Positions 14,556 through 26,278 of a stretch of DNA of 64,000 nucleotides are shown piece by piece. Both the position numbers and the translations under genes were made by a program. Each line of letters starts with the position of its first letter. Positions within the stretch are counted from its first letter, which is position 1. The stretch covers positions 186,001 through 250,000 of the forward strand of contig JAUHWL010000004.1 in the NCBI GenBank assembly GCA_030424545.1, in the 5' to 3' direction. Below the pieces are notes generated by a model. It was not told where the DNA came from and ran no database searches. It was given only the letters and a program-made list of their open reading frames with translations. The stretch is from Bacteroidia bacterium (lineage in GTDB: Bacteria; Bacteroidota; Bacteroidia; Flavobacteriales; Schleiferiaceae).

Positions 14556-15287
14556 GTGTTACGGAATGGTTTTTTCATTTTCTTACTTTTTACTGCCTTT
14601 TTAGCAAAAAGTCAAAGTTCAGAAAATGATTTCTCTACACAATATTGGTTGGATTTGGTTCCTAAATGGAATTTAAAAGGACAATCTGATTTAAAGTTGG
14701 ATTTAGGATATCGTACAATTAGTCCGCAAACATGGCAGCGGTTTATTTTACGAGGACAATATGAATACTATTCTTATGATTTATTGTTTAAAAGTGCCAA
14801 TACCAAAGAAAGGTTAATAGGCGGATTGGGATTGTTTTATTTAGATGCTTTTGAGGGTTCAAACTCATTAGAGATTAGGCCGATGCAAGGGTATCAATTG
14901 GATTTAGAGATAAATAGCTATTTAAGCATCTATCAACTTTTGCGCTTTGAGGAACGCTTTGAAATGAAATTTGATTCTAATCAAGACAATGATTTTGGTT
15001 TTCGAATTCGGTATAAAGCCCAAATGGATTATGAAATTGGCGATCTTGTTTTTCAAAAAGGTACAGGGTTTTATATCCCTTTTTACGTAGAGGTTTTTCT
15101 AAATATTGTAAGCATCAAACAGTTTAATGATGTACTCCGTATTTCTCCTGGGATAGGATATCAGTTTAATTCAGATTTCAAAATTCAACTTACTGCGGCA
15201 TATCAGTACACCTATGAGGAATTTAAAGAGCTAACAAGAACGAACAATGTTGTATTTAGGTTGGCTGTTTACAAAACAATATTCTAG
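14556..15287 (+). CDS. DUF2490 family protein
   Basis: 243 residues, GTG start at 14556 placed just before the signal peptide (FFIFLLFTAFLAKS-Q). No in-frame ATG precedes it. The mature protein (DFSTQYWLDLVPKWNLKGQ, GYRTISPQTWQRFILRGQYEY, RFEERFEMKF) matches the DUF2490 pattern and reads as a small outer-membrane barrel ending in a hydrophobic strand (VFRLAVYKTIF). Function not known for the family. Its stop overlaps the stop of the convergent TIGR02757 gene through a shared CTAG. Confidence 0.8.
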   Translation: MLRNGFFIFLLFTAFLAKSQSSENDFSTQYWLDLVPKWNLKGQSDLKLDLGYRTISPQTWQRFILRGQYEYYSYDLLFKSANTKERLIGGLGLFYLDAFEGSNSLEIRPMQGYQLDLEINSYLSIYQLLRFEERFEMKFDSNQDNDFGFRIRYKAQMDYEIGDLVFQKGTGFYIPFYVEVFLNIVSIKQFNDVLRISPGIGYQFNSDFKIQLTAAYQYTYEEFKELTRTNNVVFRLAVYKTIF

Positions 15288-16045
15288 CTAAATTTTTCAA
15301 AAACGCCTAGACCAAAAAGGGCGAAATCATACTTTACAGGGTCTGATGCATCTATTTTACGCAATGCAGAATTGAGTTCATCTACGGCTTGCCAATCGTT
15401 TTGCGTTCTTTTAAGTAAACTTAAACTTCGTGCCACTCGTCCGCTGTGTACGTCCAATGGGCAAGAAAGTAAACCTGGTGATATATTTTTCCACACTCCA
15501 AAATCAACAGCATCGTTGCGTACCATCCACCGTAAATACATGTTTATACGCTTGGCTGCACTGCCTTTAAATGGGTCAGGTAAATGTCTTTCGGTACGGG
15601 CTAAAATCCCGTTTTCTATAAAATATCGTTTAAATTGATGCAGGCCGTTTTTTAAATCATGAGCATCATGTTCATGAATGAAAAGTGTCTCCAAAGAATC
15701 AGATGTAGCGTAAAACTTTTGCAAAGCCAACACAAATCCCTTCACATCATCTGCATTAAATGTGCGGTGCACAAAACCATTCAAGCTTTGTAAATCATTA
15801 GCAGATGCGTTTTTCACAAAATCAAATGGCGAATTATCCATACGTGCCATTAAATCTTTGCTTTTGTTAATAATTGTTTTGCGCTGGCCCCATGCAAAAA
15901 CAGCTGCAAACAACCCCGCAATTTCAATGTCTTGTGTTATCGTGAACCGGTGAGGAATTTGAACAGGGTCATCTTTAATAAAATCTACGGTGCTGTAAAT
16001 AAGATATTTTTCATTTAAAAATGATTTAAGTTCATTTTCGTTCAT
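15284..16045 (-). CDS. TIGR02757 family protein (DUF2400)
   Basis: 253 residues from the ATG at 16045 (MNENELKSFLNEKY), where family similarity begins; the frame is open for 23 more codons upstream but that part looks unrelated. Recognised by PHRFTITQDIEIAGLFAA, FAWGQRKTIINKSKDLM, HLPDPFKGSAAKRINMYLRW and LDVHSGRVARSLSLL. These conserved helices resemble HhH-GPD DNA glycosylase folds, so a DNA repair role is often guessed, but no activity is established. Monocistronic. Confidence 0.88.
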   Translation of the reverse strand: MNENELKSFLNEKYLIYSTVDFIKDDPVQIPHRFTITQDIEIAGLFAAVFAWGQRKTIINKSKDLMARMDNSPFDFVKNASANDLQSLNGFVHRTFNADDVKGFVLALQKFYATSDSLETLFIHEHDAHDLKNGLHQFKRYFIENGILARTERHLPDPFKGSAAKRINMYLRWMVRNDAVDFGVWKNISPGLLSCPLDVHSGRVARSLSLLKRTQNDWQAVDELNSALRKIDASDPVKYDFALFGLGVFEKFS

Positions 16046-16420
16046 AAGTAACATTTCAAGTGGAAACACAAATATGGTTACTTCAATTAAATAATGCCTG
16101 TATTTAAATATCAACCTTTTACCAAGATTTTTCTCCGTTTGTTTTAAAAAATACTTTCTAATGAGTACGCTACTTTTTTCATCTACTATAAATTTTTTGA
16201 AAGGATTTATTTATCAATAATGCAATGATGTGAAACAGACAGGAAAGGGGTAAACCGCTAAGTTCAATACATTTAGAAAATAACCTGCCGCCATGAATTT
16301 AATACTACGTTTTATGCAGGGCCATTTTTCGATTTGTATGAATCAAATGCAAATGACTACTGGCCATTTTTCAGTTAAGCAACAATGGGCTAATGGGTTT
16401 GAAAGTAAACACAAAAAGTT
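16046..16420 (+). promoter_or_regulatory. upstream region of the cyclase array, with spaced direct repeat
   Basis: 375 bases without a convincing gene. Two copies of GGCCATTTTTC lie at 16320-16330 and 16362-16372, 42 bases apart (four helical turns), about 50-100 bases before the first cyclase start. This spacing suits a dimeric regulator binding on one DNA face, but could be chance. A 43-codon frame (ATG 16293, stop TGA 16422-16424 overlapping the cyclase ATG) also covers both copies, giving a repeated GHFS in the peptide. I see no signal peptide or domain in it, so I keep it as a possible leader peptide only. Confidence 0.35.
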
Positions 16421-18385
16421 ATGAGAATTCTAGTTTTTATAGTGTGCCTATTTTCTGCCGTAAATACTTTGGCATATACAAACTTGGACAGCCTATGGCA
16501 AATTTGGGAAGATCCCTCGCAAGCCGATACGATAAAGTGTAAAGCGATAGATGACTTGATTTGGGATGGCTTAATGTATAGTAACTCAGACAGTGCTATT
16601 GTACTTGGAAAAATTTTTTATGCCTATGCTATAAAACAAAACCTAGACAAGCAAAAATGTACGTCTTTAAATGCACTTGGCACTTGTTATTGGGTAAAAG
16701 CTGAATACATTACGGCTATTGATTATTTTGAGCAAAGTCTAGCTTTGGCAGAATATATCAACAATACGGGAGGCACTGCTTCTGCGCTCAATAATATTGG
16801 TGGCATCTACTCAGACCAAGGGTATCACCCAAAAGCACTTCACTATTTTAAACGTAGTTTAGCTCTTCAAGAAAAATTGTCAAACACTAATGGCATTGCC
16901 GTAGTTACCAGCAATATAGGTGCTATATACAAAGAGCTAGGTGACTTAGAACAGGCCTTGAAGCATGGCCAAAAAAGTTTGTCTTTATACGAGTTGACAA
17001 ATGACCAATTTGGAATGGCTATAGAGCTCTTAAAAATTGGCAGCATTTACGCTAGTCAAAAAAATTATGAAAAAGCTTTGCCATTTTATTTGCGTGCTAT
17101 TGAGATTAGGGAGCAGATAAACAATAAGCACGAGTTGGTAAGTGCATTAGAAATGACCGGCTATTTATTGTCTAAAATGGGAAGGTTTGATGAAGCAATA
17201 AAATACATTGAAAAGGCTATAAAATTAGCCGATGAAGTGGGTAATAAACGCGGTTATGCCATTAGCACCATGGTATTGGGTAGGGTTTACAAAGAATACA
17301 AGAAATTTAATCAGGCTATTTTTTATTGCGAAAAAGCTTACGGATTGCTACATGATTTATCTATTTTAAGACAACAAAAAAATGCTTGCAATTGTCTTTA
17401 TGAATCCTACAAAGCATTGGGTCAAAACGGAAAGGCACTAAAGTATTACGAGCTAAAAATTGAATTACAAGACAGCTTGCATGTTACAGAAACTGCCACA
17501 AGACTCCAACAAATGGAGTTTGCGAAACAATCGTTAGCGGATAGTATTGCCAAGGCAGAAGAAGTGCGTTTGGTTCAAGAAGCTCATGAGGAAGAATTGA
17601 GGGTAGAAGAAAATACAAGAAATATTTCACTCGGAGTTGGCGCATTTCTTTTTTTACTTGCCGGAGGAATTTACAGCCGTTTGCGCTATGTGCGTAAATC
17701 AAAGGCTACATTACAAGTAGAAAAAGACCGTTCAGATAATTTGCTGCTCAACATCCTCCCCGAAGAAATTGCCCAAGAACTCAAAGAAAAAGGCAAAGCC
17801 GATGCCCAGGATTTTGACATGGTATCTATTCTATTTACAGATTTCAAGGACTTTACAGCACAAAGCGCCAAACTAAGCGCTACAGAGTTGGTGCGTGAAA
17901 TAAACCTATGCTTTGAAGCCTTTGACCACATTATTGAAAAATACAACATTGAAAAAATAAAAACCATTGGCGATGCCTACATGGCAGCAGGCGGGTTACC
18001 CGTACCTACAGATGATTCAGTGAAAAACACTGTGTTGGCGGCTTTGGAGCTCCAAGGTTTTATTCGCGAACATAAAACAGCAAACGATGCATTAGGAAAG
18101 CCTGCTTTTGAAATGCGCGTGGGTATTCACACCGGCCCCGTTGTAGCTGGAATTGTTGGCGTTAAAAAGTTCCAATACGACATTTGGGGAGACACCGTGA
18201 ACACGGCCGCCCGCATGGAAAGCTCTGGAGAAGTGGGCAAAGTAAACATCAGCCAAGCCACGTATGAGCTGTTGAAAGACGACCCGCAATTTGCTTTTGA
18301 ATGCCGTGGTAAAATTAAAGCCAAAGGCAAGGGAGAAATGGAGATGTATTTCGTTAGCTCACCCATCAATAACCAACCATCATGA
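16421..18385 (+). CDS. TPR-sensor adenylate cyclase, array member 1
   Basis: 654 residues. Signal peptide (about 1-18), then about six TPR units with a 40-residue period (about 75-345), a charged coiled coil (about 350-398), one membrane helix (about 400-422, SLGVGAFLFLLAGGIY), a cyclase-transducer-like helix (LLLNILPEEIAQELKEKG) and a class III cyclase domain (about 465-640). Metal ligands Asp474 (LFTDFKDFT) and Asp518 (TIGDAYM), adenine-specifying Lys514 and Asp587 (QYDIWGD), and transition-state Asn594/Arg598 are all present, so it should make cAMP from ATP. The TPR part is predicted periplasmic. Its stop overlaps member 2 by 4 bases (ATGA). The signal sensed is unknown. Confidence 0.92.
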   Translation: MRILVFIVCLFSAVNTLAYTNLDSLWQIWEDPSQADTIKCKAIDDLIWDGLMYSNSDSAIVLGKIFYAYAIKQNLDKQKCTSLNALGTCYWVKAEYITAIDYFEQSLALAEYINNTGGTASALNNIGGIYSDQGYHPKALHYFKRSLALQEKLSNTNGIAVVTSNIGAIYKELGDLEQALKHGQKSLSLYELTNDQFGMAIELLKIGSIYASQKNYEKALPFYLRAIEIREQINNKHELVSALEMTGYLLSKMGRFDEAIKYIEKAIKLADEVGNKRGYAISTMVLGRVYKEYKKFNQAIFYCEKAYGLLHDLSILRQQKNACNCLYESYKALGQNGKALKYYELKIELQDSLHVTETATRLQQMEFAKQSLADSIAKAEEVRLVQEAHEEELRVEENTRNISLGVGAFLFLLAGGIYSRLRYVRKSKATLQVEKDRSDNLLLNILPEEIAQELKEKGKADAQDFDMVSILFTDFKDFTAQSAKLSATELVREINLCFEAFDHIIEKYNIEKIKTIGDAYMAAGGLPVPTDDSVKNTVLAALELQGFIREHKTANDALGKPAFEMRVGIHTGPVVAGIVGVKKFQYDIWGDTVNTAARMESSGEVGKVNISQATYELLKDDPQFAFECRGKIKAKGKGEMEMYFVSSPINNQPS

Positions 18386-20367
18386 AAAAAACAATTTTCA
18401 TTCTAGTTGTAATCCTCTCCCTTCCTATCGGGGAGGGCTGGGGAGGGGCTGCACAAAACCTCGACTCTCTCTGGGGTGTCTGGAATGACCAAGCACAACC
18501 AGACACCACCCGCCTAAAGGCGATACACGAAATTGCCTGGAATGGCTACCTCTTCAGCCAGCCAGATTCTGCCTTTTACTTTGCGCAAATGCAATATGAC
18601 TTTGCCAAAAGCAAAGGACTGAAAAAACAAATGTCAGGTGCTTTAAATACTCAAGGAGCTTCATTTTACATAAGAGCCGACTATCCAAAAGCGCTGGACT
18701 ATTTCCAAACGTGTTTAAAGATCTATGAGGAAATCGGCAATAAAAAAGGGATCGCTAATGCCATGAATAATATTGGTGCTATTTATAAGGATCAGGGCGA
18801 CTATCACAAAGCGCTGGAATATTACCAAAGAAGCTTAAAGATCATGGAGGAAATAGGCGATAAAACAGGAATCGCTAATGCCTTGAATAATATTGGTGTT
18901 ATTTATGAGGATCAGGTTGAGTATCCCAAAGCACTGGACTATTACCAAATGAGCTTAAAGATCCGTGAGGAAATAGGCGATAAAAATGGAATCGCTACTT
19001 CCCTGAATAATGTTGGTATTATTTATAAGGAACAGGGCGACTATCCCAAAGCCCTGGACTATTACCAAAGAAGCTTAAAGATCAGGGAGGAAATGGGTAA
19101 TAAAAATGGAATCGCTGGTTCCCTGAATAATATTGGGAATATTTATTTAAATCAAGGCGACTATCTCAAAGCCTTGGACTATTGCCAAAGGAGCTTAAAG
19201 ATGGCAGAGGAAATAGGCGATAAAAAAGGAATGGCTACTACCCTGAATAACATTGGAAAACTTTATCAGAAACAGGAGGATCATCAAAAAGCGATCAACC
19301 AATGCAGCAAGGGCTTGCTACTGGCACAAGAGATTGAGGCAATATCATTACAAAGGGAGGCATGCAAATGCTTGTATGATGCATACAAGTCCACTGGAAA
19401 TGGGAATAAAGCCCTAGAGTACCACGAGCAAATGTTGGTACTTGATGATAGCCTGCATGCAGAAGAAACCACCAAGAAACTTCAGCAAATGGAGTTTGCT
19501 AAAGCCATGCTGCAAGACAGCATAGCGAAAGCCGAAGAAACCCGCCTAGTGCAAGATGCACATGAAGAAGAAATGCGGGCCGAAGAAAAAACCAGAAATA
19601 TAAGTTTTGGGGTTGGTGCATTGGTGTTGATTCTTGCAGGAGGCTTATACAGCCGCTTGCGGTACATCCGTAAATCAAAAGCCACCTTGCAAGTTGAGAA
19701 AGACCGTTCTGATAATTTACTCCTCAATATTCTCCCCGAAGAAATTGCCCAAGAACTCAAAGACAAGGGCAAAGCCGATGCACGAGATTTTGAAATGGTC
19801 TCCATTCTCTTTACCGACTTTAAAGGCTTTACCGAGCAAAGCGCCAAGCTCAGTGCTGCTGAGCTTGTACATGAAATAAACCACTGCTTTGAAGCTTTTG
19901 ACAGCATCATAGAAAAGTATAACATTGAAAAAATCAAAACCATTGGCGATGCCTACATGGCCGCGGGTGGTTTGCCCGTACCAACAGACGATTCTGTAAA
20001 AAACACTGTTTTGGCTGCGCTTGAGATGCAGGCATTTATTGTAAAACGGAAAAATGAATTCGATGCACAAATCTCCTCCCCTTTGGGGAGGCTGGGAGGG
20101 GCTCGTTTTGAAATGCGTGTGGGTATTCACACCGGCCCAGTGGTGGCCGGCATCGTAGGCGTCAAAAAATTCCAATACGACATTTGGGGTGATACCGTAA
20201 ATACCGCAGCGCGTATGGAGAGTTGTGGAGAATTAGGAAGTGTGAATATCAGTCAAGCGACTTTTGAACTTTTAAAGGATTACCCTGATTTTACTTTTAA
20301 ATCAAGAGGAAAAATAGAGGCGAAGGGTAAGGGAGTATTGGAAATGTATTTTGTTTCTCGTGTATAA
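18382..20367 (+). CDS. TPR-sensor adenylate cyclase, array member 2
   Basis: 661 residues, same plan as member 1 and its closest relative (both open the mature part with NLDSLW). The TPR block is unusual: five 120-bp units at 18661-19260 are close to identical at DNA level. Two in-frame insertions of a GC-rich palindromic element change the protein: one makes the end of the signal peptide read LPIGEGWGGA, the other adds about eight residues (SSPLGRLGG) before FEMRVG in the cyclase domain. All metal, adenine-selecting and Asn/Arg residues remain, so it is probably active. The insertion before FEMRVG falls where the other four members differ most in sequence, so probably in a loop. Translationally coupled to member 1. 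Confidence 0.9.
   Translation: MKKTIFILVVILSLPIGEGWGGAAQNLDSLWGVWNDQAQPDTTRLKAIHEIAWNGYLFSQPDSAFYFAQMQYDFAKSKGLKKQMSGALNTQGASFYIRADYPKALDYFQTCLKIYEEIGNKKGIANAMNNIGAIYKDQGDYHKALEYYQRSLKIMEEIGDKTGIANALNNIGVIYEDQVEYPKALDYYQMSLKIREEIGDKNGIATSLNNVGIIYKEQGDYPKALDYYQRSLKIREEMGNKNGIAGSLNNIGNIYLNQGDYLKALDYCQRSLKMAEEIGDKKGMATTLNNIGKLYQKQEDHQKAINQCSKGLLLAQEIEAISLQREACKCLYDAYKSTGNGNKALEYHEQMLVLDDSLHAEETTKKLQQMEFAKAMLQDSIAKAEETRLVQDAHEEEMRAEEKTRNISFGVGALVLILAGGLYSRLRYIRKSKATLQVEKDRSDNLLLNILPEEIAQELKDKGKADARDFEMVSILFTDFKGFTEQSAKLSAAELVHEINHCFEAFDSIIEKYNIEKIKTIGDAYMAAGGLPVPTDDSVKNTVLAALEMQAFIVKRKNEFDAQISSPLGRLGGARFEMRVGIHTGPVVAGIVGVKKFQYDIWGDTVNTAARMESCGELGSVNISQATFELLKDYPDFTFKSRGKIEAKGKGVLEMYFVSRV
18413..18450. 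repeat. GC-rich palindromic element, copy 1 (in-frame, in signal peptide)
   Basis: A CCTCTCCC arm, a short spacer, then GGGGAGGGCTGGGGAGGGGCT. It matches copy 2 at 20072-20103 in its right half and shares the CTCCC / GGGAG inverted core. It is far richer in G and C than its surroundings. It supplies codons for residues about 11-23 of array member 2. Strings of this kind are familiar to me as interspersed intergenic repeats in Bacteroidota; copy number in this genome cannot be seen. Confidence 0.7.
18661..19300 (+). repeat. 120-bp tandem repeat encoding 40-residue TPR units
   Basis: Five complete 120-bp units start at 18661, 18781, 18901, 19021 and 19141, and a decayed sixth runs to about 19300. 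Units share most positions, including silent sites (for example TATTACCAAA and AGCTTAAAGAT), which indicates recent amplification or gene conversion. Each unit encodes one TPR of the 40-residue type (GDYPKALDYYQRSLKIREE, then a NGIA..LNNIG helix). The first unit is the most divergent of the five. Confidence 0.92.
20072..20103. repeat. GC-rich palindromic element, copy 2 (in-frame, in cyclase domain)
   Basis: CTCCTCCCC-TTT-GGGGAGG followed by CTGGGAGGGGCT. It forms a strong hairpin and is related to copy 1 at 18413-18450. The four paralogous cyclases lack these bases at the same place, which shows that it is an insertion that kept the frame. Confidence 0.75.
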
Positions 20368-20394
20368 TAATGAACATTCGTTAGATTGCACCCA

Positions 20395-22332
20395 ATGTTG
20401 AGCCAATTCCAAGTAAACCTATTTCTATTATTGTCCTTTTGCTTTTTAACCGTTGCAAAAGCAGAAAACAATCGTATGGAAGCATTTCTGGAAAGAAGCT
20501 ATCAATCTCATTCTGATAATAATTTCCAAATAGCCATTGATTATGCCGACAGTGCACAACAAGAATGTTTGGCGAATAGGGATACATCATGCGCAACTCG
20601 AGCAGAATTTTACACGGAAATATCTCGGCAAATTGCAGAAGGGAATAATTACGATATCAATAAAATTGAAACTTTTAAAAGTGAATTCTCAAGAAATGGT
20701 TTTTGGTTAGAAGCTGCTAGAGCAAACATTCATCTCTCCGTTATTTACAACTTTTATGGCGATGTAAAACAAGAATTAAAAAATTACATGGAGGCGCTTT
20801 CTATTTATGAAAACCATGATTACAAAACAGGAATTGCGGGCACCTACAGTGATATAAGTCTAATGTATTATGATCAGCATGACTATGACCTTGCATTCCA
20901 ATACATCCGTAAAGCCATAGCTATAGACGAAGTTTTTGGTACCCCAAAAAAAATGCATCGAGATCTCAACAATTTAGCAATCATTTTTGAACATACGGGC
21001 CCACTTGATTCGGCTATCTACTATCAACAATTAGCGCTTGAATATGCCATAACCTCAAAAGATGCTTTTAGCATTGGACTTTCCCTAAGTAACCTGGGTA
21101 ATGATTATGCCATGTTAGGAGATTACGCTATGGCAGAGCTGATGCTTAATAAGGCTTTGAAAATAAGAGATTCGCTTGGCAATCATCGGGGGCTTTCTTA
21201 TACCCACAATCGTCTTGCCAATTTGTACATTCAACAAAATAAGCTGCAAAAGGCGAGTTATCATGCGCAACAATCATTGCAAAACGCATTGATAACAGGT
21301 GAACTAAAGGTAAAGCGGATGGCTTACAACAGATTAGAAGAAATTGCCGCCAAACAAGGGAACACTGCTGATGAGTTATTCTTTTTTAGAAAAGCCGTTG
21401 AACTAAACGACAGCCTAAGAAACTCGGATAACACCAAAGAAATAACGAAGATGGTGTTGAGCTATGAACACAATAAAAACATGTTTGTAGATAGCGTAAA
21501 AGCATACCAACATGAAGCCGATACAAAAGCCATTTATGAACGAAAAATACTTGAGCAACACAACCAGAGAAACATCTCTTTAGCTTCGGGATTGTTTTTT
21601 TTAATATTCGCGCTAGGGGCTTATTTTAGAGCTAGATACATAAAAAAATCTAAAGTCGTTCTTCAAAAAGCAAAAGATAGGTCGGATGAACTTTTACTGA
21701 ACATACTGCCAAGCGATGTTGCGGATGAGTTGAAAATAAACGGAAAAAGTGAAGCCCGGAATTTTGAAAATGTAACCGTACTTTTTACAGATTTTAAAGG
21801 GTTTACACAAACAGCAGCTTCTTTAACCGCAAAAGATTTGGTGGATGAATTAAACGAATGTTTTAAAATGTTTGATGAAATAGCCAGCAAACATGGAGTA
21901 GAAAAAATTAAAACAATTGGAGATGCTTATATGGCTGCTGGGGGTCTTCATAAACAAGGAGTAAACTCGGCTAAAGATGTGGTAAAGTGTGCACTAGAAA
22001 TGCAGCACTTTATGCTGGAAAGAAGAGCAGTGCGTAAATCTCAAAACCTTGCAAGTTTTGAAATGCGTGTAGGCATTCACACTGGCCCTGTTGTAGCAGG
22101 CATCGTAGGAGTAAAAAAATTCCAATATGACATTTGGGGCGATACTGTTAATACTGCTAGCCGCATGGAAAGCAATGGCAAAGTGGGGAAAGTTAACATC
22201 AGCTATACCACTTATTTGTTATTAAAATCAGACCCAGGCCTTATATTTGAAAGTCGTGGTAAAATAGAAGTAAAAGGAAAAGGAGAAATGGAGATGTTCT
22301 TTGTAAACGTAAACAAGCCCCGACATTATTAA
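20395..22332 (+). CDS. TPR-sensor adenylate cyclase, array member 3
   Basis: 645 residues from the ATG at 20395, which begins a signal peptide (MLSQFQVNLFLLLSFCFLTVAKA); a TTG nine bases earlier is less likely. The TPR block (about 85-320) is divergent from members 1 and 2, with the 40-residue period retained. Coiled coil, one membrane helix (LASGLFFLIFALGAYF, about 390-410) and cyclase domain follow. The cyclase keeps FTDFKGFT, KIKTIGDAYM, QYDIWGDTVNTASRM. It is the most divergent cyclase domain of the five (LPSDVADELKINGKSE; GGLHKQG in place of GGLPVPT). It starts 27 bases after member 2 and ends overlapping member 4. Confidence 0.9.
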   Translation: MLSQFQVNLFLLLSFCFLTVAKAENNRMEAFLERSYQSHSDNNFQIAIDYADSAQQECLANRDTSCATRAEFYTEISRQIAEGNNYDINKIETFKSEFSRNGFWLEAARANIHLSVIYNFYGDVKQELKNYMEALSIYENHDYKTGIAGTYSDISLMYYDQHDYDLAFQYIRKAIAIDEVFGTPKKMHRDLNNLAIIFEHTGPLDSAIYYQQLALEYAITSKDAFSIGLSLSNLGNDYAMLGDYAMAELMLNKALKIRDSLGNHRGLSYTHNRLANLYIQQNKLQKASYHAQQSLQNALITGELKVKRMAYNRLEEIAAKQGNTADELFFFRKAVELNDSLRNSDNTKEITKMVLSYEHNKNMFVDSVKAYQHEADTKAIYERKILEQHNQRNISLASGLFFLIFALGAYFRARYIKKSKVVLQKAKDRSDELLLNILPSDVADELKINGKSEARNFENVTVLFTDFKGFTQTAASLTAKDLVDELNECFKMFDEIASKHGVEKIKTIGDAYMAAGGLHKQGVNSAKDVVKCALEMQHFMLERRAVRKSQNLASFEMRVGIHTGPVVAGIVGVKKFQYDIWGDTVNTASRMESNGKVGKVNISYTTYLLLKSDPGLIFESRGKIEVKGKGEMEMFFVNVNKPRHY

Positions 22333-24155
22333 TGAAAAGATATCTTTTTTTAGTGTTTTGCGCTTTATTCTTTTTTTCAACCTATGGGCAAACTGAGAAA
22401 GAATATGACGTTGATTTGCTATTGCATAAACTCCAGAATTCTAAAGACACTCTAACAAATGTTAGTTGGTTTAATGAGCAAATTAGGCTGGTCTATAAAT
22501 CGGGTATCCCAAAGAATAAAGATGTTTTTCTATCATTCATTAAACACACATTAGAAGTTGCTGAAAATATTAAGGATAAGGAAGGTATAGCATGGACAAA
22601 TTATTATTTGGCCAGATATCACATTGCTGCCATCAGTGGTTATTCCAATGCTTTACCCATGCTGCTTAAAGCAAAATCTAATTTTGAAGAACTTGAGAAT
22701 AACCTTGGCGTTTCCCAATGTTTGATGCAAATGGGACTTATTAGCTATGTTACTCAATATTATGAAGATGCCATTAAGAATTTTAAACTGTCTTTAGATT
22801 ATCATACAAATCCAACTTCCACGTACTTAATGGCCATTTCTTATTCAGAACTGAATCAGTTTAAAGAGGCTAAAACACATTTTTATGCGGCTATAAGAGA
22901 GTTTAAATCATTAAACAGGTTGTACCGTATGGATGAATGTTATATGTATTTGGGCAAATTATATGTACGTGAAGAAGCCTTAGATTCTGCATACTATTAC
23001 TTAAACAAGGCATTAGATAACTTAAAAAAGCTTGATGACAAAGCTTATTTAACCAGACCATATGCGCTCATTTCTGAATATTATTTAAAAATGGGTCAAT
23101 TAGATGTCGCAGAGTTTTATGCACTTTCTAGTATAGAGTATTCTAAAGATGCAAACGATCAAATTAGTCCATTAATAGCCAGTGAGATTTTGAGTAAAGT
23201 TTATGAAGAAAAAAACGACTTCAAAAAATCTCATTTTTATCTTAAGATGCATTATAAACTCAGAAATGAGGAATTTCAAGGAGGAGTGAAACAAAAAATC
23301 ACGGAAATGCAAACCATTTTTGAGTTTAAAAAGAAAATGGATGAAGAAAACCGCAGACACGAAATAGAAATATTAGAAAAAAACAGAGTGAAGAATATTC
23401 TGTTAACGTCTGGTTTATTTGTCATTTTACTAGCAGGTGGTCTTTTTAGCCGACTTCAATTTGTAAGAAAGTCTAAAAAAGAATTGCAGAATGAAAAAAA
23501 TGTATCGGAAAAACTGCTCTTAAATATTTTGCCTGGAGAAATTGCACAAGAGTTAAAAGAAAAAGGCAAAACAGAGGCGCGTGATTTTGATATGGTTTCT
23601 ATTTTATTTACTGACTTTAAGGAGTTTACTGAAATAGCAGAAAAATTAACGGCATCTGAATTAGTCAGTGAAATCAATCATTGTTTTGAGGCTTTTGATG
23701 GGATTATAGAAAAGTATAACATTGAAAAAATTAAAACCATTGGCGATGCATATATGGCTGCTGGTGGCTTACCGGTTCCAACCAATGATTCCGTAAAAAA
23801 TACGGTTTTAGCAGCCTTAGAAATGCAAGATTTCATCAATAAACGCAAGGCCGAGATGGATGCATTGGGGAAAACTGCATTTGAAATGCGCATTGGTATT
23901 CATACCGGTCCGGTGGTGGCCGGCATAGTAGGTGTTAAAAAGTTTCAATATGATATTTGGGGTGATACGGTTAACACCGCCAGTCGCATGGAAAGTAGCG
24001 GGGAGGTTGGTAAAGTAAACATCAGTCAAGCTACCTTTGAGTTACTAAAGGATGACCCAGATTTTACTTTTGAAAGTCGTGGCAAGATTGAAGCCAAGGG
24101 AAAAGGAACACTGGAAATGTATTTTATTACAAGAAAAAGAAAGGAAAAGTCTTAA
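22332..24155 (+). CDS. TPR-sensor adenylate cyclase, array member 4
   Basis: 607 residues, the shortest member. The ATG shares its A with the TAA of member 3. Signal peptide MKRYLFLVFCALFFFSTYG-Q. The sensor part (about 40-330) has fewer and more degenerate TPR units than the others; the helices around YYEDAIKNFKLSLDYH and ALDSAYYYLNKALDNL are clear. Coiled coil with KKKMDEENRRHEIEILEK, membrane helix at about 358-378, then the same LLLNILPGEIAQELKEKGK linker and a cyclase domain with all catalytic residues (FTDFKEFT, KIKTIGDAYM, QYDIWGD, NTASRM). Confidence 0.9.
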   Translation: MKRYLFLVFCALFFFSTYGQTEKEYDVDLLLHKLQNSKDTLTNVSWFNEQIRLVYKSGIPKNKDVFLSFIKHTLEVAENIKDKEGIAWTNYYLARYHIAAISGYSNALPMLLKAKSNFEELENNLGVSQCLMQMGLISYVTQYYEDAIKNFKLSLDYHTNPTSTYLMAISYSELNQFKEAKTHFYAAIREFKSLNRLYRMDECYMYLGKLYVREEALDSAYYYLNKALDNLKKLDDKAYLTRPYALISEYYLKMGQLDVAEFYALSSIEYSKDANDQISPLIASEILSKVYEEKNDFKKSHFYLKMHYKLRNEEFQGGVKQKITEMQTIFEFKKKMDEENRRHEIEILEKNRVKNILLTSGLFVILLAGGLFSRLQFVRKSKKELQNEKNVSEKLLLNILPGEIAQELKEKGKTEARDFDMVSILFTDFKEFTEIAEKLTASELVSEINHCFEAFDGIIEKYNIEKIKTIGDAYMAAGGLPVPTNDSVKNTVLAALEMQDFINKRKAEMDALGKTAFEMRIGIHTGPVVAGIVGVKKFQYDIWGDTVNTASRMESSGEVGKVNISQATFELLKDDPDFTFESRGKIEAKGKGTLEMYFITRKRKEKS

Positions 24156-24310
24156 TGACTGTGCAAATGCCTGATTCCTTGTTTTAAAAGTAAACTATTA
24201 AAAGGTTGAAATCTGGTTTGTTTCTGCGCATAAACTTTTAAGATAATAATGTTGCAAATACACTTTGTAATATTTTGAATTGTATTTTCAACGCAAAATG
24301 TAAAATTAAA

Positions 24311-26278
24311 ATGATGAGACTTGGTTGTTTAGCCATATTCCTAATTATATCAAATGTAATGTTTGGTCAAAACAACTTGAAAACGGTGGATAGCGTTTAT
24401 CAACACTGTGTACAAAACCCGCATGACACGGATGCTATAAATCAATTGAATAGCCAGATAAACCGTTTATACAACCGTTATCCAGACTCTGTACAGTTTT
24501 ATACCATTAAGCAAGTAGAATTAGCAAAAAATGCAAATTCAATAAGGTTAGAAGCTCGCGCGTATATTGCTTGGGGTATCTGTCAAGAAATACAAGGCAA
24601 TCTAGATTCGGCCATAGCACTATATCAAATTGCGAACAAAAAGTCCATGAAAACCAATAATCTTGGTTTAAAAGCCAGTGTTTATAACAATTTAGGCATT
24701 GTTTACTCCTATAAAGGCCTCTATGAATCTTCTTTAGAATACACGCTTAAAGCCATGCAAATACAAGAAGAACGAAATGATTCATCGGGTATGGCCATGA
24801 TTTATAATAATCTTGGATTAAGGTATAGCGAACTAGGGAATCAAGAAAATGCAATTAAATATTATAAAAAGGCCATAGTTCTCAATAGAGCTATCAACAG
24901 AATGTATCATTTAGGTACAAATTATTGTAATCTAGGAAGGTCGCTTTACATCAAAAGAGATTTAGACAGTTCTAAAAGCTGTTACGATAAAGCATTGCGA
25001 ATTTCTAAACAAGAGGGGGATTTATATAACCAATCACTTGTATATGATGGGCTTGCACATATTTTGTTAGAGCAAAAAAAGATCAATACAGCCCAATTAT
25101 ATTTAGATTCTTTGTTGGTAGTGGCAACAAGCATTAGTGATGATTATGGCATAAATAACGCAAAATTCACGCAAGGAGTAATTTTACAAGCAAAAGGAGA
25201 TTATAAAAATGCTTTAGTATACTTTTTAGCATTCGAAAAATGGGTGCTAAAGAATAGATACGGAAGCTCACAACCAGATGTTTACCGATCTATCTCCGAT
25301 ACGTATAAAGCACTAGGAAATTTTCCCAAAGCATTGGAGTACATGCAGTTTTTTGCTGATGCGAAAGACTCAATCTTATCAGATCAAAAAGATTTGGCAT
25401 TAGAGCAAATCAGCATTTACAAACAAGGAAAATTACAACGCGAAAAAGATGTATTAAACAAAGAAATTTCTATACAGGAAATAGCTATAGAACATGAGCA
25501 AAATTTAAAAAACATCTTTGTTTTAATAGGAGGGTTGCTATTACTCATTGCCATGGGTATTGGACACAGATATTTGGCTGTTAAAAAAACAAAAAAGGTA
25601 CTTGCCGAAAAAAATAAAATTATTGAATCTGAGAAAGAAAGAAGCGAGGCCTTGCTTTTAAATATTTTACCAGAAGAAATTGCCCAAGAACTTAAAGAAA
25701 AAGGCAAAGCAGACGCTAGAGATTTTGACATGGTATCTATCTTGTTTACCGATTTTAAAGATTTTACAAAAACATCGGCTACCTTAAATGCCACAGATTT
25801 GGTTAAAGAAATAAACACCTGTTTTGAAACTTTTGATGGAATAATAGAAAAATACAACATTGAAAAAATTAAAACCATTGGCGATTCTTATATGGCCGCT
25901 GGTGGTTTACCTGTACCAACCAAAGAATCTGTTAAGAATACTGTTTTGGCTGCCTTAGAAATGCAGCAATTTATTAAAGACCATAAATTGGTCTTAGAAG
26001 CGGAAAACAGACCTGCTTTTGAGATGCGTGTAGGAATTCACACAGGCCCTGTGGTGGCCGGAATTGTTGGGGTTAAAAAATTTCAATATGACATTTGGGG
26101 CGATACGGTAAATACAGCAAGCCGTATGGAAAGCAATGGTAAAGTAGGCAAAGTAAATATTAGCAAAGCCACTTATGAATTGCTTAAAAACGAAAGTGAA
26201 TTTGCTTTTGAAAGTCGTGGAAAGATTAAAGCAAAAGGTAAAGGCGAAATTGAAATGTGGTTTGTAATGTTGAAATAA
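24311..26278 (+). CDS. TPR-sensor adenylate cyclase, array member 5
   Basis: 655 residues from the ATG at 24311 (MMRLGCLAIFLIISNVMFG-Q). An upstream TTG at 24275 is open but would put twelve charged residues before the signal peptide. About six TPR units, coiled coil, one membrane helix (about 412-432, NIFVLIGGLLLLIAMGIG) and a complete cyclase domain (FTDFKDFT, KIKTIGDSYM with Ser for the usual Ala, QYDIWGDTVNTASRM). A gap of 155 bases separates it from member 4, so it probably has its own promoter. It is followed by a convergent LolD-like gene. Confidence 0.9.
   Translation: MMRLGCLAIFLIISNVMFGQNNLKTVDSVYQHCVQNPHDTDAINQLNSQINRLYNRYPDSVQFYTIKQVELAKNANSIRLEARAYIAWGICQEIQGNLDSAIALYQIANKKSMKTNNLGLKASVYNNLGIVYSYKGLYESSLEYTLKAMQIQEERNDSSGMAMIYNNLGLRYSELGNQENAIKYYKKAIVLNRAINRMYHLGTNYCNLGRSLYIKRDLDSSKSCYDKALRISKQEGDLYNQSLVYDGLAHILLEQKKINTAQLYLDSLLVVATSISDDYGINNAKFTQGVILQAKGDYKNALVYFLAFEKWVLKNRYGSSQPDVYRSISDTYKALGNFPKALEYMQFFADAKDSILSDQKDLALEQISIYKQGKLQREKDVLNKEISIQEIAIEHEQNLKNIFVLIGGLLLLIAMGIGHRYLAVKKTKKVLAEKNKIIESEKERSEALLLNILPEEIAQELKEKGKADARDFDMVSILFTDFKDFTKTSATLNATDLVKEINTCFETFDGIIEKYNIEKIKTIGDSYMAAGGLPVPTKESVKNTVLAALEMQQFIKDHKLVLEAENRPAFEMRVGIHTGPVVAGIVGVKKFQYDIWGDTVNTASRMESNGKVGKVNISKATYELLKNESEFAFESRGKIKAKGKGEIEMWFVMLK

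Follow-up and report, generated by a model that had tools for sequence, protein, structure and literature searches.

A tandem array of five receptor cyclase genes

The subject of this analysis is a tandem array of five genes at positions 16421-26278 of a 64,000-nucleotide stretch of DNA, here called the window, from a Bacteroidia bacterium (GenBank contig JAUHWL010000004.1). The window lies on contig C24 of a 3.38 Mb genome assembled in 32 contigs, which is 99.97% complete. Five intact open reading frames (ORFs) on the forward strand fill the interval, and each encodes a putative receptor in which a sensor built of tetratricopeptide repeats (TPRs) precedes a class III adenylate cyclase. The lengths below are in amino acids (aa).

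16421..18385, forward strand: gene 1, TPR receptor adenylate cyclase, 654 aa; TPR helices at aa 36-332, membrane helix at aa 402-418, cyclase from LLLNILP at aa 441
17741..18382, forward strand: LLLNILP transducer and class III catalytic domain of gene 1
18382..20367, forward strand: gene 2, TPR receptor adenylate cyclase, 661 aa; first 4 base pairs (bp) shared with the end of gene 1
19717..20364, forward strand: LLLNILP transducer and catalytic domain of gene 2; carries a short insert that stems from a GC-rich element
20386..22332, forward strand: gene 3, TPR receptor adenylate cyclase, 648 aa; TTG start with an inner ATG at 20395, divergent cyclase
21691..22329, forward strand: LLLNILP transducer and catalytic domain of gene 3
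22332..24155, forward strand: gene 4, TPR receptor adenylate cyclase, 607 aa
23514..24152, forward strand: LLLNILP transducer and catalytic domain of gene 4
24275..26278, forward strand: gene 5, TPR receptor adenylate cyclase, 667 aa; TTG start
25652..26275, forward strand: LLLNILP transducer and catalytic domain of gene 5

Besides the overlap of genes 1 and 2, there are 18 bp between genes 2 and 3 (27 bp if counted to the inner ATG of gene 3) and an overlap of 1 bp between genes 3 and 4. These measurements bear out a first-pass annotation of the window, which had described the first four genes as overlapping or within 27 bases of each other. The gap between genes 4 and 5 is 119 bp, or 158 bp to the ATG at 24314, which is likely to be the translation start of gene 5 rather than the TTG.

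The Pfam model Guanylate_cyc (PF00211) matches all five proteins near its full length, at 187-206 bits for a cut-off of 21.9, and TPR_12 exceeds its own Pfam cut-off in each of them. Every protein has two main hydrophobic segments by hydropathy, the first N-terminal and the second ahead of the cyclase and followed by positive charge; the N-terminal one is recognizable as a signal peptide, by eye and by hydropathy, in all five (a stricter first scan did not pick up the membrane helix in gene 1 or the signal peptide in gene 4). The two hydrophobic stretches and the positive charge that follows the second therefore predict a periplasmic TPR part and a cytoplasmic cyclase. The proteins fit a single-pass receptor plan of signal peptide, TPR solenoid, one membrane helix and cytoplasmic output, and Pfam and hydropathy thus agree with the domain order that the first-pass annotation had proposed for all five. 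A cytoplasmic TPR part would have spoken against that annotation; hydropathy and charge instead predict that it is periplasmic.

Six aligned catalytic residues are invariant in the five genes, namely what we take to be the metal-binding Asp pair, the adenine-selecting Lys and Asp, and the transition-state Asn and Arg. The Lys and the Asp of the second pair are carried by IKTIGD and QYDIWG motifs present in every cyclase of the array, as expected from the earlier statement that all catalytic residues are kept, including those that choose adenine. Of 142 cyclase domains in the fetched loci that are 190 aa or longer, 138 likewise have all six. The gene 1 cyclase, the one searched in this respect, aligns with both the C1 and the C2 domains of AC5 and AC8, and a homodimer should therefore hold two complete active sites. 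From these residues we infer that the array cyclases are probably active and would make cyclic AMP (cAMP) from ATP.

AlphaFold models are available for genes 1 and 4, with a mean predicted local distance difference test (pLDDT) score of 78 and 78.6, respectively. In both, a TPR solenoid mostly above 90 is followed by long helices that span the stalk and the membrane, and the cyclase fold is modeled at mixed confidence. The best structural match of the gene 4 cyclase model is 5o5l (TMt 0.81). When Foldseek matches were re-ranked, the gene 1 solenoid aligned best with peptide-binding TPR proteins (LGN, Z ~30; NprR/Rap, Z ~25; KLC1, Z ~25), a shared fold that in itself proves no function.

Unlike sensors joined to similar cyclases

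The sensors of the array differ from one another, as had been noted in the first pass: those of genes 1 and 2 are 42% identical, and the remaining pairs are 21-27% identical or do not align. At least three of them have relatives of their own elsewhere and belong to separate lineages. The closest partner of the gene 4 sensor is L041a (locus L041, 8094-9935), at 47% identity and 319 bits with the next match at 78, and that of the gene 5 sensor is G030b (genome G030, locus L135, 4053-6056), at 42% and 302 bits with the next at 115. The gene 2 sensor has a relative in G030a, an orthologue of the whole gene cut by a contig end, with 79% identity over the available part of the sensor and 91% in the cyclase. 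The G030 relatives of genes 2 and 5 share a contig; the 2.8 kb that separates them contains two genes on the reverse strand, an arrangement that resembles an opened-up array.

FimS (NF053520) is the top NCBIfam row for all four of the proteins scanned (genes 1, 3, 4 and 5), with E values from 4.5e-12 to 1.5e-24, and the best-matching stretches fall in the sensor and membrane part. At 45-86 bits, these four proteins stay far under the cut-off of 600 for the FimS family, and the kinship of the array sensors with FimS is suggestive.

The sensor of gene 2 has one further feature, which a repeat scan of the array did not find in the other four genes:

18678..19256, forward strand: 120-bp tandem DNA repeat, 4.8 copies with 83% matches, in the TPR part of gene 2

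The same gene also carries a GC-rich, palindrome-like element twice in frame, at 18430-18448 in the signal peptide and at 20085-20101 in the catalytic domain. Four exact copies of the searched form occur genome-wide, two of them inside gene 2, against none in the control, and a variant of the second insert is found at the corresponding position of the G030 orthologue. Allowing two mismatches in one form of the element gave 5 copies against 4 in the control, so no larger family emerged from that search.

The cyclases of genes 1, 2, 4 and 5 are mutually 75-83% identical, and that of gene 3 is 62-66% identical to the other four; the earlier description of the cyclase halves as nearly alike thus fits four genes but not the third. 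Synonymous differences between the array cyclases are 0.66-0.87. This is saturation, there is therefore no sign of recent exchange, and recent gene conversion inside the window array was rejected. Some cyclase pairs from different genomes are closer at synonymous sites than the array members are to each other (gene 1 with L041d, 0.61; gene 1 with G030a, 0.63). Strong purifying selection suffices to account for the similarity of the cyclase halves in the window.

Recurrent arrays and apparent copying of the cyclase module

A whole-genome count gives eight PF00211 matches, five of which are in the array. Matches to this family occur in 18 of 59 relatives (19 of 60 with the genome itself), and G016 has as many as 34, including five each on contigs C176 and C333, some of them cut by contig ends. 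Runs of at least two cyclase ORFs, fragments counted, are present in 18 of 77 loci from named genomes, a set obtained by keeping the 80 best among 134 gene 1 matches. In a sample of 117 further genomes spread over the phylum, 45 gave a match at 1e-30. Four of the genomes (G080, G115, G156 and G164) contain three to six cyclase matches in a row, as judged manually from their positions. The idea that the array is unique is thus ruled out by similar runs in Bacteroidota relatives and across the phylum, and the window holds one case of a recurrent Bacteroidota arrangement. A lineage-wide commonplace with an already assigned signal would have told against the first-pass annotation. The runs do recur, but the open-licence literature, in the portions available, yielded no functional description of these receptors or arrays and no account of cAMP signaling in this group.

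Do neighboring genes in such arrays exchange their cyclases? A pairwise survey covered 122 cyclases with a full sensor region, after pairs with cyclases more than 99.4% and sensors more than 98% identical had been dropped as the same gene in two loci. Five pairs have a cyclase synonymous difference below 0.40. Four of these lie on the same contig (L055, 0.02; L065, 0.32; L116, 0.34; L084, 0.40 after rounding), with sensors 19-27% identical; the fifth joins two genomes at 0.37, with sensors 60% identical. In the L055 pair the cyclases are 99% and the sensors ~27% identical; the identity is lost close to LLLNILP at one edge and within the C-terminal tail at the opposite edge, and the edges in L065, L116 and L084 are less sharp. 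L116 is from an isolate, Soonwooa buanensis DSM 22323, and the other three are from metagenome assemblies. Copying of the cyclase module between neighbors is the simplest reading of these four arrays, because sensors so old hardly share a history with cyclases so young.

Two loci are worth describing for themselves. The adjacent receptor cyclases of L055 (142-4920) share identical DNA over ~180 codons and display a sharp natural domain junction near LLLNILP. Elsewhere in the phylum, G164 encodes on three contigs (L239-L241) cyclases with similar membrane helices and diverse sensors; 15 of the 25 lowest among 703 pairs are within this genome, with cyclases 86-94% and sensors 28-56% identical.

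The window array might have the same, older history, in which a cyclase cassette was copied between neighbors by gene conversion and the cyclases evolved in concert. Such a history would explain alike cyclases joined to unlike sensors, and the four same-contig pairs and the within-genome pairs of G164 speak for it. So do the cyclases of genes 4 and 5, which are closer to their array mates than to the cyclases of their sensor relatives: that of gene 4 is 82-83% identical to genes 1 and 2 and 67% to L041a, and that of gene 5 is 83% identical to gene 1 and 64% to G030b. In a tree of 43 cyclase domains, most of them closest matches, one clade of 25 (support 99/99) takes in genes 1, 2, 4 and 5 along with cyclases from other genera and families, and the cyclases of gene 3, L041a and G030b fall outside it. 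However, topology tests reject the pairing of gene 4 with L041a only at the borderline (p 0.049) and do not reject that of gene 5 with G030b (p 0.174), and both pairings were picked after the distances had been seen. The end branches of L041a and G030b are also long, ~0.5 against a median of 0.15, and faster change in these two is an alternative to exchange. The saturated synonymous sites of the window and the closer cross-genome pairs count against copying there as well, and differences of 0.40-0.60, frequent between contigs (535 other-contig pairs), are not diagnostic. For the window, we therefore regard concerted evolution as a tentative possibility.

In the same tree, the cyclase of L050, a small contig titled as a Desulfobacterales metagenome-assembled genome, groups with Robiginitalea, which may reflect a binning error or a transfer.

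Proposed envelope sensing, predicted cAMP output and its possible readers

We consider it likely that the window contains an operon-like array of five paralogous receptor cyclases through which different envelope signals would reach a single cAMP pool, and signal-diverse receptor cyclases are the most likely function of the genes. Each chain would comprise a Sec signal peptide, a FimS-like periplasmic TPR solenoid, a helical stalk, one membrane helix, the LLLNILP transducer and the cyclase. The solenoid probably binds a peptide or protein ligand, and binding would change the stalk and the transducer. Each class III domain appears to carry the residues of both active-site halves, such that homodimers could make cAMP, and the five sensors would read different envelope signals into the shared pool. 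Purifying selection would preserve the likeness of the cyclase halves, with apparent copying of the module as a second contribution in some related arrays. Because the array sensors resemble the periplasmic TPR sensor of FimS, sensing is probably of the FimS type, wired here to a cAMP output.

Several observations weigh against this picture. The stalk and membrane helices that would transmit the signal have low confidence in the gene 1 and gene 4 models (pLDDT mostly 40-60), and a predicted monomer carries no information on dimers. Other TPR families also match in the NCBIfam scan, TPR matches being promiscuous. Cotranscription of the five genes is suggested by their spacing; promoter- and terminator-like sites at the array are at the level of shuffled sequence (for sigma-70 patterns, which may not suit this phylum). 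The genome has five proteins with the cyclic nucleotide-binding (cNMP-binding) family PF00027, to which the search for a CRP-type receptor was limited. PRxA, the phosphate-binding cassette motif of CRP, is present in none of the five, and by eye none has an Arg at that place; a common cAMP receptor for the array was thus not found among them. Nor does the genome have a match to PDEase_II, the class II phosphodiesterase family. Six Metallophos matches are present. No PF00027, PDEase_II or Metallophos match lies on contig C24, consistent with the first-pass report of no phosphodiesterase or Crp-type regulator in the window. The proposal made there, of receptors that send different envelope signals into cAMP, is favored by unlike sensors and complete-looking cyclases but lacks a common receptor.

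Class III cyclases work as dimers with the active sites at the interface, and the similar cyclase halves might let different chains pair, so that each dimer integrates two sensors. The 75-83% identity of four catalytic domains and the tight packing of the genes favor such pairing. We nevertheless think it unlikely: the complete residue set on every chain means that complementation is not required, and the stalk helices, which may set the pairing, differ between the genes apart from genes 1 and 2. A broader proposal, which we rate as distinctly improbable, treats the arrays as sensor-diversification loci. The TPR sensors would diverge and expand by repeat copying, for which the 120-bp unit of gene 2 would be an instance. 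An interchangeable catalytic cassette with its edge near LLLNILP, maintained by selection and copying between neighbors, would put any sensor onto the same output; chains would pair in mixed fashion, and a non-CRP protein, possibly Popeye-like, would read the cAMP. We rate as very improbable a reading in which the genes are redundant or decaying duplicates that persist by chance and serve few functions. Copies with stop codons or split frames do occur in the related genomes G020 and G022, but in the array all five reading frames and their catalytic residues are intact although synonymous divergence is saturated, a sign of long purifying selection.

Several known systems are akin to the array. 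FimS of Porphyromonas gingivalis is, according to its study (PMC11053733), a periplasmic sensor with eight predicted TPRs in which substitutions in the TPR motifs alter fimbrial expression, and for which the authors suggest a polypeptide ligand. It resembles the array proteins in its periplasmic TPR sensor, but its output is a histidine kinase acting on FimR rather than a class III cyclase. In Sinorhizobium meliloti, which has 26 class III cyclases, CyaD1, CyaD2 and CyaK feed Clr, as stated in PMC4222275. The likeness lies in several receptor-like class III cyclases feeding one cAMP pathway; there, however, the cAMP receptor is known, whereas no CRP-type counterpart to Clr was found among the PF00027 proteins of our genome. 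The S. meliloti receptors have sensor domains other than TPRs, reportedly CHASE2. Tandem arrays of receptor cyclases are also formed by GRESAG4 of Trypanosoma brucei, and a study that covers them finds concerted evolution widespread in such arrays (PMC1855330). T. brucei is a eukaryote, and the sensors of the window array are unlike each other. The extracellular domain of GRESAG4 differs from a TPR sensor. A CHASE2 adenylate cyclase cluster of Campylobacterota includes a TPR-domain protein, a phosphodiesterase and a FecR-domain protein, going by PMC9239204. It is thus likewise a receptor cyclase gene set with a TPR component, but one in which the TPR is on a separate protein, in contrast to the single chain of the window genes. 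Finally, mycobacterial Rv1625c (4p2f, 7yzk) and the bacterial 5o5k/5o5l are among the matches of the array catalytic domains and share their fold and sequence, but these cyclases have a multi-helix membrane domain in place of the signal peptide, TPR part and single helix of the array.

Arrays of this kind recur in Bacteroidota, are little described and have known functional analogues, and the earlier remark that no known pathway comes to mind is tempered by the FimS-like sensor, the S. meliloti receptor cyclases and the recurrent arrays. The arrays are natural modular receptors in which many periplasmic TPR sensors serve one standard output, and their natural junctions show where sensor and cyclase can recombine. 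They also raise the question of what responds to cAMP in a genome where eight class III cyclases are present but no canonical CRP was found.

Candidate readers were considered in the genome and its relatives. The cassette survey of relatives covered the 30 of 86 PF00027 matches that were readable as loci. One of the five PF00027 proteins of our genome, at L011 (1438-2082, reverse strand; C1:19116-19757), is Popeye-like and has a hydrophobic N-terminal part, by eye, followed by a cNMP-binding domain. Its match to POPDC (PF04831) is marginal, at 30.2 bits for a cut-off of 28.1, and in an alignment with a cGMP-dependent kinase its cassette retains the Glu but has Ala in place of the Arg. The Popeye domain is confined to POPDC proteins according to a review (PMC6562197). 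A single-sequence search with L011 gave one weak match among 59 other genomes and none in the 14 with strong cyclase matches (PF00211 E <1e-30), so a lineage-wide effector role for it is unsupported. Crp family A2, with a GEL...KR-like cassette, was rejected as effector too: at E <1e-60 it occurs in 5 of the 14 strong-cyclase genomes and 8 of the 45 others (p 0.27; weaker A2 matches, and the weaker-cyclase genomes G036, G040, G048 and G059, counted as without), and it has no match in our genome. In L178 (G002:C59), the gene of a distinct class III cyclase adjoins that of a protein that looks patatin-like by eye; the N-terminal cNMP-binding domain of this protein seemingly has both a Glu and an Arg, and the two genes may be a cyclase-effector pair.

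The array is flanked by two genes on the opposite strand:

15284..16114, reverse strand: left neighbor, one member of the gene pair flanking the array, presumably TIGR02757
26323..26988, reverse strand: right neighbor, an ABC transporter ATPase by eye, the second member of the pair parted by the array

The left flanking gene was found in 31 of 36 genomes, and stretches of 6-19.5 kb around it were examined in 18 other genomes. The two flanking genes are direct neighbors on one strand in 8 of these 18, with a gap of 5-118 bp; in some of the others (e.g. L203) the contig ends beside the left gene and its neighbor is out of view. No cyclase match occurs in any of the 18 stretches. Since the flanking pair is adjacent and cyclase-free in several relatives, an old pair of genes was probably split by the array in this lineage.

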